Of a stretch of DNA of 64,000 nucleotides, positions 36,083 to 39,613 are shown piece after piece. Each line of letters starts with the position of its first letter. Positions within the stretch are counted from its first letter, which is position 1. This DNA comes from Armatimonadota bacterium (GTDB lineage Bacteria > Armatimonadota > Fimbriimonadia > Fimbriimonadales > Fimbriimonadaceae): positions 310,001 to 374,000 of the forward strand of contig WGMG01000006.1 of assembly GCA_016125185.1 (NCBI GenBank). The letters run 5' to 3'. The notes beneath the pieces were generated by a model, which did no database searches, had not been told where the DNA came from, and saw only the letters and a program-made list of their open reading frames with translations. The position numbers were made by a program, and so were the translations under genes.

Positions 36083-37243
36083 ATGCCGATTGAAAATGGA
36101 TTGCCGACGCAGCCGCGACGAGGCCGAGCGATTACCGTTCGAACACCTGGACGCACCTCAGGGTTTATGGACCCCAATGTTTCTGCGCTCGAAGATCCTA
36201 CGCTAGATGGCGAAGACATGATGGATGTCGATGCCAGCGACGAAGAGCTTGAAGAGCTTGAGGCCGAGGGTGTCCAAGACGATTCTGAAGAGCTAGAGAT
36301 GTGGATGCGGCAGACTCGCCGCGCTCAGCTTTTGACGCCGGAGCAGGAAGTTCACCTCGCCGTTCTCGTCATGGCCAAAGAACTGGCCGAGAAAGGAAAG
36401 GAGAAGGAGCTTCTGAAGCTTCTTCAGCGCCGAGATATCACGCACCCGGTCGGAAAACCGACGGAGTTGAATCAGTTTATCATCACTCGCGTAGTGAACG
36501 AGGGTATCGAGGCGAAGCGCCACCTGATCGAGTCGAACCTTCGACTGGTTGTGTCGATCGCCAAGAAGTACAACGCTCGTGGAATTCCGCTTGCCGACCT
36601 GATCCAGGAAGGCAACCTCGGTTTGATCCGCGCGGTTGAGAAATTCGACTGGTCGAAGGGCTTCCGCTTCTCGACTTACGCGACTTGGTGGATTCGACGT
36701 GCGATTGCTCGCGCGATCATCAACCAGGGCCGAACGATCCGCATTCCGGTGTACGTGGCCGAACTGATCAACAAGGTTGTGAAGACGGCGTCGCGACTTC
36801 AGCAGGAGCTGCAGCGCGAGGCGACCGAGGAAGAGATCAGCCGTGAGGTTGGCCTGTCGGTTGATCGTGTCCGCGAAATGATGCGCGTGGCGGTCGAGCC
36901 GATCTCGCTTGAGACTCCGGTCGGTGAGAAGGACAACTCGTCCATCGGCGACTTCGTGCAGAGCCAGAACATGCCGACGCCGGGCGACGTCACTTGGAGC
37001 CTTATCCGACGCGAAGAGATCGACGGCATTCTCGGACGACTGACTGGCCGCGAGCGCGACGTGGTTCGCCTACGGTTCGGTCTAGACGATGGCCGCGCCC
37101 GAACCTTGGAAGAGGTCGGCGCTGAGTTGAACGTCACCCGCGAGCGAGTTCGACAGATCGAGCTTCGAGCGATGAAGAAGCTTCGCCACATCGGGCAAGA
37201 GCTTTCTTCGCAGGGCTTCACGGTTACGTCGAACCCGAACTAA
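36083..37243 (+). CDS. RNA polymerase primary-type sigma factor (SigA-like)
   Basis: A sigma-70 factor of about 386 residues. An acidic N-terminal stretch ([20 protein letters not shown]-type) precedes region 1.2. A helical non-conserved insert lies between 1.2 and 2.1. Region 2 ([45 protein letters not shown]) and region 3 ([40 protein letters not shown]) resemble primary sigma closely. Region 4 ([32 protein letters not shown]) reads the -35. The frame is open to GTG 35984, but those 33 codons look non-coding and a TTGACA overlaps them, so I start at ATG 36083. It ends with a strong hairpin at 37247. Confidence 0.9.
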
Positions 37244-37246
37244 GTT

Positions 37247-37288
37247 GACATGACAAGGGCCGCGCGAATGCGCGGCCCTTGTCATGTC
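37247..37288 (+). terminator. Strong hairpin terminator after the SigA-like gene
   Basis: A 19-bp perfect stem beginning GACATGACAAGGG (37247-37265 with 37270-37288) and loop GAAT, directly after the stop codon. No T-tract follows. Confidence 0.75.
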
Positions 37289-37387
37289 TGAGGCTTCTGG
37301 CTTCAGCTTTGAATCTAGAATTGTTCGACGACACCATTGTTGTGACGTCCTAGGGTGTAAATTCGAGAAAATTGAAAATTTTTCGAT

Positions 37388-37424
37388 CCATCCCAACTTT
37401 TCCCGCAAAGCCTGCGACTGATAG
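37388..37424 (+). promoter_or_regulatory. Repeat copy 1: putative ECF promoter of the sigma/anti-sigma operon
   Basis: AACTTTT (-35-like, 37394-37400), then CGCAAAG, then CCTGCGACTGATAG (-10-like CGACT, ending 37424). The 30-base core matches copy 2 (38409-38438) at 27 positions with identical spacing. AAC at -35 and CG at -10 are hallmarks of ECF promoters. Confidence 0.6.
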
Positions 37425-37512
37425 TCAGGTGCAAAACTCGGAAACCTTTGGGTTGCGCGAATGGGTGGAGTGGAAAGTTACAGGTCGATCCAAGAAAGAA
37501 CTGCATGCTGAG

Positions 37513-38001
37513 ATGCCTCCCTTCGAGGAATTGATTCGGACCTATGGAACCGAACTGCGCCGTTTTGTCTATCTGAAGGTCGAAGCCGAAGCGGTGGAAG
37601 ATGTTCTTCAGGAGGTATGGGTTGCCGCTTGGCAGGGATATTCGGGAGTTCAGAACCCTACTACCATCCGGGCCTGGATCTACGGCATCTGTCTTCACAA
37701 ATGCCACGACCATTATCGAGATAAGGCGAGGGAGAGTAGCCATGTGGCTATTGCCGGTCTCGAAATCCTGGATCCGGGCCCTTCACCAGAGGGGTTGGCG
37801 GTTGATTCGGCACGGGTATCGGCCTTGCTCAAGAATCTGGACGACTCGCAACGCGAGGTTGTCGAACTGTATTACTATGCGCAACTGACGCTGGCCGAGA
37901 TATCCGAACTTCTGAAGCGAAACATGAACACGGTGAAGTACCAATTCTATCGGGCGCATACGACCCTGCTCGAGGTCGGACGGCGGGAGGAGCTTCTATG
38001 A
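37513..38001 (+). CDS. ECF sigma factor linked to PEP-CTERM protein
   Basis: A 162-residue ECF sigma factor when started at the ATG that gives MPPFEELIRTYGTELRRFVYLK, the usual first helix of region 2.1. The frame is open another 47 codons upstream, but that part overlaps the promoter-like repeat at 37388-37424, so it is unlikely to be translated. Region 2.2 is AEAVEDVLQEVWVAAWQGY, and region 4 is LDDSQREVVELYYYAQLTLAEISELLKRNMNTVKYQFYRA. The stop overlaps the next gene's start as ATGA, typical for a sigma/anti-sigma pair. It probably drives its own promoter and that of the PEP-CTERM gene. Confidence 0.9.
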   Translation: MPPFEELIRTYGTELRRFVYLKVEAEAVEDVLQEVWVAAWQGYSGVQNPTTIRAWIYGICLHKCHDHYRDKARESSHVAIAGLEILDPGPSPEGLAVDSARVSALLKNLDDSQREVVELYYYAQLTLAEISELLKRNMNTVKYQFYRAHTTLLEVGRREELL

Positions 38002-38435
38002 ACTGCCAGCAGCGCGAAACGGACCTGCTGATGCTGGTCCATGGCGAAGCCAAGGGATGGGTGAATCTGCGAACCCGCCTGCACATTCTCGGTTGTCGGC
38101 GCTGCCGAAGCAAGCTAGCCGAGTTTTACGTTTTGTCACAGGGTCTAGCCAACGATTTGGAGAATCCCCGCTTGGGCTCGCGGCGCATTATTCGGCCATC
38201 GTTGGCTGGTTTTGCCGCCGCGATGGTGGGGCTACTCGTGCTTTTGATTGCGGCGGGCGGTTTGGTTACGGTTTGGGTGCGGAGCACGACCGTCACGCCA
38301 CCCTGTAGCTCGGAGCCGCCCAGCGCAAGGAGGGGACCGATTGCAGTTAACGAAGCGTCACCCGTGATGCCGATGGTCCCGAAGAAGAAGGAAGTTTTGG
38401 CACCATCCAACTTTTTTCGCAAAACCTGCGACTGA
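37998..38435 (+). CDS. Zinc-type membrane anti-sigma factor (ZAS-like)
   Basis: A 145-residue protein. The cytoplasmic N-terminus has HILGCRRCRSKL, an HxxxCxxC zinc-binding anti-sigma motif, preceded by MNCQQRETDLLMLVHGEAKG, the usual first helix. One membrane span lies at about residues 70-93 (FAAAMVGLLVLLIAAGGLVTVW). The extracytoplasmic tail is short and Pro-rich, with no known sensor domain. It would hold the ECF factor inactive until a signal arrives. The final codons (NFFRKTCD, stop) are inside promoter copy 2, so coding and promoter sequence overlap. Confidence 0.85.
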   Translation: MNCQQRETDLLMLVHGEAKGWVNLRTRLHILGCRRCRSKLAEFYVLSQGLANDLENPRLGSRRIIRPSLAGFAAAMVGLLVLLIAAGGLVTVWVRSTTVTPPCSSEPPSARRGPIAVNEASPVMPMVPKKKEVLAPSNFFRKTCD

Positions 38436-38438
38436 TAG
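38403..38438 (+). promoter_or_regulatory. Repeat copy 2: putative ECF promoter of the PEP-CTERM gene
   Basis: AACTTTTTTCGCAAA then ACCTGCGACTGATAG, ending 43 bases before the PEP-CTERM ATG. It overlaps the anti-sigma stop codon. Same -35/-10 spacing as copy 1. Confidence 0.6.
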
Positions 38439-38481
38439 CCCGTGGGAGGGACGCAGTCTCTCCTCGCCATAGGTAGAAACC

Positions 38482-39036
38482 ATGACTCGATCAGTCCTTA
38501 CTTTGACGGCTTTATTTGCCTTAGCGGCCGCCTCTCTTGCGCAAACGAACGCAGAGGGCTTCATCACCTATACGCAGAACAACTCGCTGTTCACTTACGA
38601 CATCACGCTCCACAATACGGGCACGACCAATATCGGAACCCTTTGGTATGCCTGGGTGCCGGGCCAGGACTACCTGCCTGTACCGCCTTCCTCAACTTCT
38701 AGCCCTTCCGGTTGGACGTTTACGCAGACGACCAGCCTAGGCTTTGGAACTGGTCTACGATGGACGGCTCCGGGAGCCTTGGAGATCGCGCCCGGCGACA
38801 CAATGTCCGGCTTCGAGTTCACCACGACAACGACCCCAGCCGAGTTGGCGGGGCTGTCGATTTTTGGGGCTCATCCTCCGGTAGGGACAAGCTTTGTGTA
38901 TGAGCATGCTTTCTCTGGCTTGAACTCGTCGGGTGGCTTTACATCGATTGTGATCAATCCGGTGCCGGAGCCGGCGACCTTCGGTGCGCTTGGACTCGGT
39001 GCCTTCTGCCTGGTGCGCCGTCGCCGACGAGGATAA
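38482..39036 (+). CDS. PEP-CTERM surface protein
   Basis: A 184-residue exported protein. Signal peptide MTRSVLTLTALFALAAASLAQ; Thr/Ser-rich beta-type body with the LHNTGTTNIGTLWYAWVPGQDY and IAPGDTMSGFEF segments, typical of small secreted PEP-CTERM proteins. The C-terminus VPEPATFGALGLGAFCLVRRRRRG is the sorting signal (here given for its parts: VPEP motif, short hydrophobic span, Arg-rich end), recognised by an exosortase. No exosortase gene lies in the window. It lies directly downstream of an ECF/anti-sigma pair and repeat copy 2. Confidence 0.92.
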   Translation: MTRSVLTLTALFALAAASLAQTNAEGFITYTQNNSLFTYDITLHNTGTTNIGTLWYAWVPGQDYLPVPPSSTSSPSGWTFTQTTSLGFGTGLRWTAPGALEIAPGDTMSGFEFTTTTTPAELAGLSIFGAHPPVGTSFVYEHAFSGLNSSGGFTSIVINPVPEPATFGALGLGAFCLVRRRRRG

Positions 39037-39142
39037 GACTTCAACGTTCCGGTTTGCCCATCGGAACTCCTGCCTCCAAAAAGAAAGGGGCGTTTACTCA
39101 GCAGACTATCTGGCCAAACCATTCGGATGATATGCTCACAGC

Positions 39143-39613
39143 ATGATTCCGATCCTGCTGATGGCAGCCTGGCTGCCAACGCCCCAAAACCCTACGGCCA
39201 ATACCGAGGACGTCAAGAGTGAAGACGCCATCATCAAGGCCGTGTATGACGTCATTTCCGGACCGGCGGGCAAGGCCCGCGATTGGGACCGTTTTCAGTC
39301 GCTTTTCGATGCTAAAGGCACCCTTTGCGCCGTGGTGAAGAATCGCCAGGGCAAGAAGGTTGCGATCACGATGACGCCGGACGACTATGTGAAGAATTCG
39401 GGTCCGTACTTGGAGAAGAACGGCTTCTTTGAGCGTGAATCGAAGCGAAAGTCGATGCGCTCGGGAGATTTGGTGATGGTGTTCAGCGATTATGAGTCGC
39501 GCAACAAGCCTGACGACAAGAAGCCGTTCGAGGTTGGGACGAACTCGCTTCAGTTATTCACCGATGGGACTCGGTGGTATGTTCATTCGATTTTGTGGCA
39601 GGGCTCAGACTAA
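39143..39613 (+). CDS. Exported NTF2-like (SnoaL-type) protein
   Basis: A 156-residue protein with a short N-terminal hydrophobic segment (MIPILLMAAWLP). The body resembles the nuclear-transport-factor-2-like fold: AIIKAVYDVISGPAGKARDWDRFQSLFDAKGTLCAV at the start and VGTNSLQLFTDGTRWYVHSILWQ at the end, the usual first-helix and last-strand parts. These folds are often binding domains or small enzymes; no catalytic residues can be named. It overlaps the convergent MFS gene by 4 bases. Confidence 0.7.
   Translation: MIPILLMAAWLPTPQNPTANTEDVKSEDAIIKAVYDVISGPAGKARDWDRFQSLFDAKGTLCAVVKNRQGKKVAITMTPDDYVKNSGPYLEKNGFFERESKRKSMRSGDLVMVFSDYESRNKPDDKKPFEVGTNSLQLFTDGTRWYVHSILWQGSD

Follow-up and report, generated by a model that had tools for sequence, protein, structure and literature searches.

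ECF sigma factors are typically accompanied by an AAC -35 box, a CGT -10 box, a co-transcribed anti-sigma factor, and autoregulation (PMC8103513). For PEP-CTERM genes, control via RpoN and probably PrsK-PrsR is documented, with pepA of Aquincola tertiaricarbonis as the example (PMC9850573). The locus described here lies in a 64,000-nucleotide stretch of an Armatimonadota genome (hereafter the window) and resembles autoregulated ECF systems with HxxxCxxC anti-sigma factors in its sigma2-sigma4 protein, its adjacent and overlapping anti-sigma reading frame, the AAC of its -35 element, and a putative autoregulatory promoter before the operon. It differs from the systems of PMC8103513 in its -10 element, which reads CGA(C/T/A) and not the hallmark CGT, in a predicted second promoter that sits within the anti-sigma 3' end, and in its presumed target, an exosortase-sorted surface protein. 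An alternative sigma factor controlling PEP-CTERM surface proteins is common to the Aquincola system and to this locus, although the former employs sigma-54 with a probable two-component system, whereas the latter would employ an ECF sigma factor with its anti-sigma factor in Armatimonadota. Literature searches returned no paper combining PEP-CTERM with 'ECF sigma' and none combining TIGR03118 with 'sigma factor', an absence that is not proof of novelty. The system is thus of a familiar type, although its target class is apparently undescribed. We consider it likely that the locus is an autoregulated ECF/anti-sigma switch with two promoters, P1 and P2, and one dedicated exosortase-sorted target in the source genome (Table 1).

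Table 1. Features of the putative switch and its surroundings (positions in the window)
Feature	Position	Strand	Basis and remarks
RpoD-like primary-type sigma factor gene, context outside the switch	36083..37243	+	Pfam Sigma70_r2, r3, r4; start inferred from G024 homolog
Perfect 19-bp hairpin directly 3' of the RpoD-like gene	37247..37288	+	-41.6 kcal/mol, z -9.0; without T run
P1, predicted ECF promoter CCAAC-N17-CGAC	37393..37421	+	Matrix score 27.3, window excluded from training; spacing-conserved pattern at 24/34 sigma loci
ECF sigma factor gene, probable GTG start	37429..38001	+	Pfam, NCBIfam; N-terminus conserved with G024
Single-pass anti-sigma gene, 145 aa, HILGCRRC at residues 29-36	37998..38435	+	HxxxCxxC plus a transmembrane stretch, features shared by most clade operons
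P2, predicted ECF promoter within the anti-sigma 3' end	38407..38435	+	Matrix score 27.8; same-place site in G024 (20.8) and G003 (18.6)
PEP-CTERM surface protein gene, 184 aa, presumed P2 target	38482..39036	+	PF07589 and TIGR02595 above cut-off; sorting motif ~38959-39027
156-aa protein gene, no Pfam match	39143..39613	+	Next gene conserved in G024, which has no PEP-CTERM gene here

The first-pass annotation drew attention to two 30-bp blocks, 37395-37424 and 38409-38438, with AAC and CGACT in the layout of an ECF promoter. Direct alignment of the 30-mers confirmed that they are identical at 27 of 30 bases without a gap, whereas about 2e-4 such matches would be expected by chance per 64-kb window of random bases. 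AAC occupies 37395-37397 and 38409-38411, CGAC occupies 37415-37418 and 38429-38432, and the core motif begins two bases earlier than the 30-mers, with CCAAC at 37393 and 38407. When up to three mismatches were allowed, the 4.52-Mb source genome held these two copies only and the 84 other genomes of the family held none. A pattern scan of 37200-39200 returned neither sigma-70-type promoters nor intrinsic terminators; the hairpin that follows the RpoD-like gene is probably a transcription end that would isolate P1 from that gene. Elsewhere, the segment 22107-25640 of the window contains long direct repeats, nearly identical and recurring about every 1.3 kb, which are suggestive of genes duplicated in tandem.

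The gene after the first copy encodes an ECF sigma factor, with Pfam matches to Sigma70_r2 (2e-9, residues 54-120) and Sigma70_r4_2 (4e-9, residues 148-195) and no region 3; the TIGR02937 superfamily model was the sole one over its cut-off among the 25 best NCBIfam matches. Because G024, the nearest relative, conserves the initial VQNS..FGLR, the gene probably starts at the GTG at 37429, about 10 bases past the -10 element, and the message would then be leaderless or nearly so. The next in-frame ATG is at 37513, ahead of region 2. The following reading frame overlaps the 3' end of the sigma gene and has no Pfam match; it encodes HILGCRRC, an HxxxCxxC motif, and one transmembrane stretch.

From the family and the phylum Armatimonadota we gathered 34 related sigma loci, and 32 of the 34 sigma factors form one group in a tree (support 91/93), separate from the family's control ECF factors. 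The pattern C(A/G)AC-N17-CGA was present upstream of the sigma gene at 24 loci, against one to six loci for each of the other spacings from 10 to 25 and a mean of 1.8 (maximum 5) for shuffled upstream regions. The match in G067, counted among these 24, could be fortuitous; its aligned site has N18, like those of G072 and G131. A weight matrix built from ten ortholog sites, with the window left out, gave its two highest scores in the window to the two copies, and the next best was 14.0. Given the conservation of the N17 pattern upstream of sigma genes and the scores from the window-excluded matrix, P1 is very probably an autoregulatory promoter. The same evidence bears out the proposal of the first-pass annotation that both repeats are promoters of ECF type, very probably those of the neighbouring ECF sigma factor.

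An anti-sigma-like reading frame lies downstream of nearly all sigma genes of the clade and encodes HxxxCxxC in 24 of 31 cases; the frame adjacent to the ECF sigma gene in the window has the features of its predicted cognate anti-sigma factor. A cysteine occurs within the last 12 residues in 21 of the 31 clade anti-sigma factors examined, and it is possible that this tail cysteine acts as a redox or metal sensor. The external tails of the clade often end in ...DKCR, ...RCD, or ...HCK (for example, window 37998-38435, L289, L287, and L050).

The repeats could in principle have a coding origin, as the first-pass annotation itself allowed: both would be conserved 3' ends of anti-sigma genes, ending in NFFRKTCD-stop and NFSRKACD-stop, with the first copy a remnant of a lost gene. 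The second copy does end the anti-sigma gene, whose frame runs through P2 to N-F-F-R-K-T-C-D-stop, and the first can be read likewise. However, the frame through the aligned P2 of G024, where the gene order is the same and the site lies at the same place, is shifted by one and reads P-T-I-Y-R-A-K-T-T-E-A-K. Compared with its counterpart in the window, the G024 element is longer by three bases (1 + 2) in its early part and shorter by three further on, which leaves the 12-base gap between the outer blocks intact, and the G024 anti-sigma factor ends in ...RAKTTEAK without an NFFRKTCD-type peptide. Moreover, many genomes keep the first copy ahead of the sigma gene with the same internal spacing. 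The coding origin is ruled out for practical purposes by the different frame and the compensating 3-base indels of the G024 site, and at P2 it is the DNA, as judged from this alignment, that appears to be conserved and not the peptide. We also regard it as very improbable that the repeats are the sites of another regulator or copies of a small mobile repeat. Within the source genome, P1 and P2 share 9 of 12 spacer bases, which goes beyond the needs of a promoter, but local copying between the two sites would be the simplest account of this likeness. The genome-wide count of two and the lack of any Rfam family match for the element speak against a mobile repeat or a foreign site, as does the conservation of the AAC and CGA blocks at a fixed distance among orthologs while the spacers between them vary.

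A further possibility concerns P2 and its target. P1 could be a real autoregulatory promoter while P2 serves whatever gene lies downstream, so that the PEP-CTERM gene would be there by an accident of insertion and would be no special target. P2 is indeed kept in G024, where it points to the homolog of the 156-aa gene, and the site that G003 carries at its anti-sigma end is followed by a PhyH-type gene. We nevertheless consider such an accident unlikely, because surface-protein genes recur beside the sigma clade and because the only close homolog of the window PEP-CTERM protein among 291 genomes, in G006, also adjoins a sigma gene of the clade. Even if accidentally acquired, the PEP-CTERM gene would be under the control of the sigma factor. 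The two-promoter switch with a dedicated target is our preferred reading.

The PEP-CTERM protein matched PF07589 at 28.6 bits (1.4e-6; cut-off 20.7) and TIGR02595 at 23.9 (cut-off 16), and a hydrophobic N-terminus is visible by eye in its sequence. With one exosortase detected in the source genome (PF09721, E 2e-47), the protein has the features of the predicted exosortase substrate class. Its AlphaFold model, with a mean pLDDT of 44, was too poor for a structure search. The Pfam matches of the sigma factor and the PEP-CTERM protein, together with the HILGCRRC motif and transmembrane stretch of the anti-sigma factor, agree with the gene identities assigned in the first-pass annotation.

It had also been supposed that the same element might mark other PEP-CTERM genes, and this did not hold. 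Pattern searches and matrix scoring of individual PEP-CTERM loci covered the about 70 PEP-CTERM proteins of the source genome that exceed the cut-off, and a convincing upstream site was found at one gene only, that of the window; the next upstream score was 13.1, and one match of 17.8 sits about 120 bases inside a predicted PEP-CTERM reading frame. Sites within two mismatches numbered 13 genome-wide, against 18 for the reversed control pattern. A genome-wide PEP-CTERM regulon is thus rejected, and these searches leave the sigma operon itself and the PEP-CTERM gene as the sole clear targets in the source genome. An ECF regulon for a surface protein is likely for this single target and is joined by recurrent links in the clade, but it does not extend across the genome.

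Outside the sigma loci, a search allowing a single mismatch at most gave seven sites in the clade genomes and five for the reversed control, and most of these distant sites may be due to chance. Family-wide, clade genomes had 16 sites against five for the control and the other genomes had nine against 21 (Fisher p 0.002), an enrichment to which the sigma loci that supplied the pattern contribute most. One distant site in G024 (L215, G024:C56:666-694) precedes a gene for a secreted YHS-domain protein, and one in G012 (L196, G012:C70:26754-26782) precedes a gene for a Cys-rich protein with a weak, below cut-off MerB match. Together with the tail cysteines, these genes, one example of each, give no more than a hint of a thiol or metal theme.

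The link between surface proteins and the sigma factor is recurrent within the clade. PEP-CTERM or TIGR03118 genes, the latter belonging to a family that often carries PEP-CTERM, adjoin nine sigma loci (G000, G006, G007, G021, G022, G043, G105, G130, and G131). In G007, G021, and G022, a TIGR03118 gene and the sigma operon are divergently oriented, with their sites placed back to back; in G043, G105, and G130, a TIGR03118 gene comes after the anti-sigma gene, with a PEP-CTERM motif on it in G043 and G105. A protein with a PEP-CTERM-like end, whose Pfam motif score is below the cut-off, follows the anti-sigma gene in G131. In G012, a TIGR03118/PEP-CTERM gene is on a different contig from the sigma gene and has a site (18.1) about 50 bases before its probable start. 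The window target belongs to a different, rare 184-aa family; its G006 homolog (42-45% identity) is encoded immediately ahead of the sigma gene, at a locus where no promoter of the C(A/G)AC/CGA type was recognised. The five TIGR03118 genes from family genomes that lack the sigma clade bore no site, and the same was true of the TIGR03118 genes in G000 and G024. Adjacent PEP-CTERM or TIGR03118 genes are lacking at roughly two thirds of the clade loci, and most surface-protein genes that follow the anti-sigma gene in other genomes have no P2 of their own.

An adjacent surface-protein gene at nine of 34 loci compares with a rough expectation of one or two; the binomial p for eight or more is about 7e-5 at 2% per slot, which is a rough guide only, as the 2% is an estimate and related loci are counted. 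No PEP-CTERM gene lay within 1.5 kb of twelve other ECF loci from the family, and a search of named genomes, the contigs of G024 and G056 aside, yielded distant ECF factors with no TIGR03118 gene nearby. The surface-protein label requires about six to seven changes on the sigma tree, and this suggests repeated recruitment or loss of surface-protein genes at the sigma loci. It is conceivable, although we lean slightly against it, that one Armatimonadota ECF clade with a fixed CCAAC-N17-CGA promoter is a locus-bound switch to which different surface proteins (PEP-CTERM families and TIGR03118) have repeatedly been recruited, with the cysteine-bearing external tail of the anti-sigma factor as the sensor. 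Other kinds of genes were also seen at these loci. Genes with a pseudopilin-type N-terminus lie beside the sigma operon in several genomes, upstream in L286, L287, L288, L289, and L291 and downstream in L042 and L051. PhyH-type dioxygenase genes recur after the anti-sigma gene in G003, G002, and G103 (L038 2626-3468, L039 1141-1965, and L286), and another neighbours the YHS gene of G024 that carries a site (L215 3' part).

In the switch that we propose, the single-pass anti-sigma factor would normally hold the ECF sigma factor, which would be freed by a signal at the envelope, perhaps one that the external anti-sigma tail detects. The freed sigma factor would then transcribe its own operon from P1, forming a positive feedback loop, and would also transcribe the PEP-CTERM gene from P2, whose identity as a promoter is supported by conservation. 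Judging from its motifs, the PEP-CTERM product would be exported, and the single detected exosortase would sort it to the cell surface. P2 would untie the amount of the surface protein from the anti-sigma message. Read-through from P1 into the PEP-CTERM gene is possible, as the scan revealed no terminator in between, and the 156-aa gene is possibly cotranscribed with the PEP-CTERM gene. In relatives, other surface proteins often occupy the PEP-CTERM slot beside sigma factors of the same clade.

The fixed motif would allow target prediction for this sigma clade in new genomes. More generally, the conserved promoter and the sigma clade may provide a testable handle on when the little-studied Armatimonadota deploy exosortase-sorted surface proteins.
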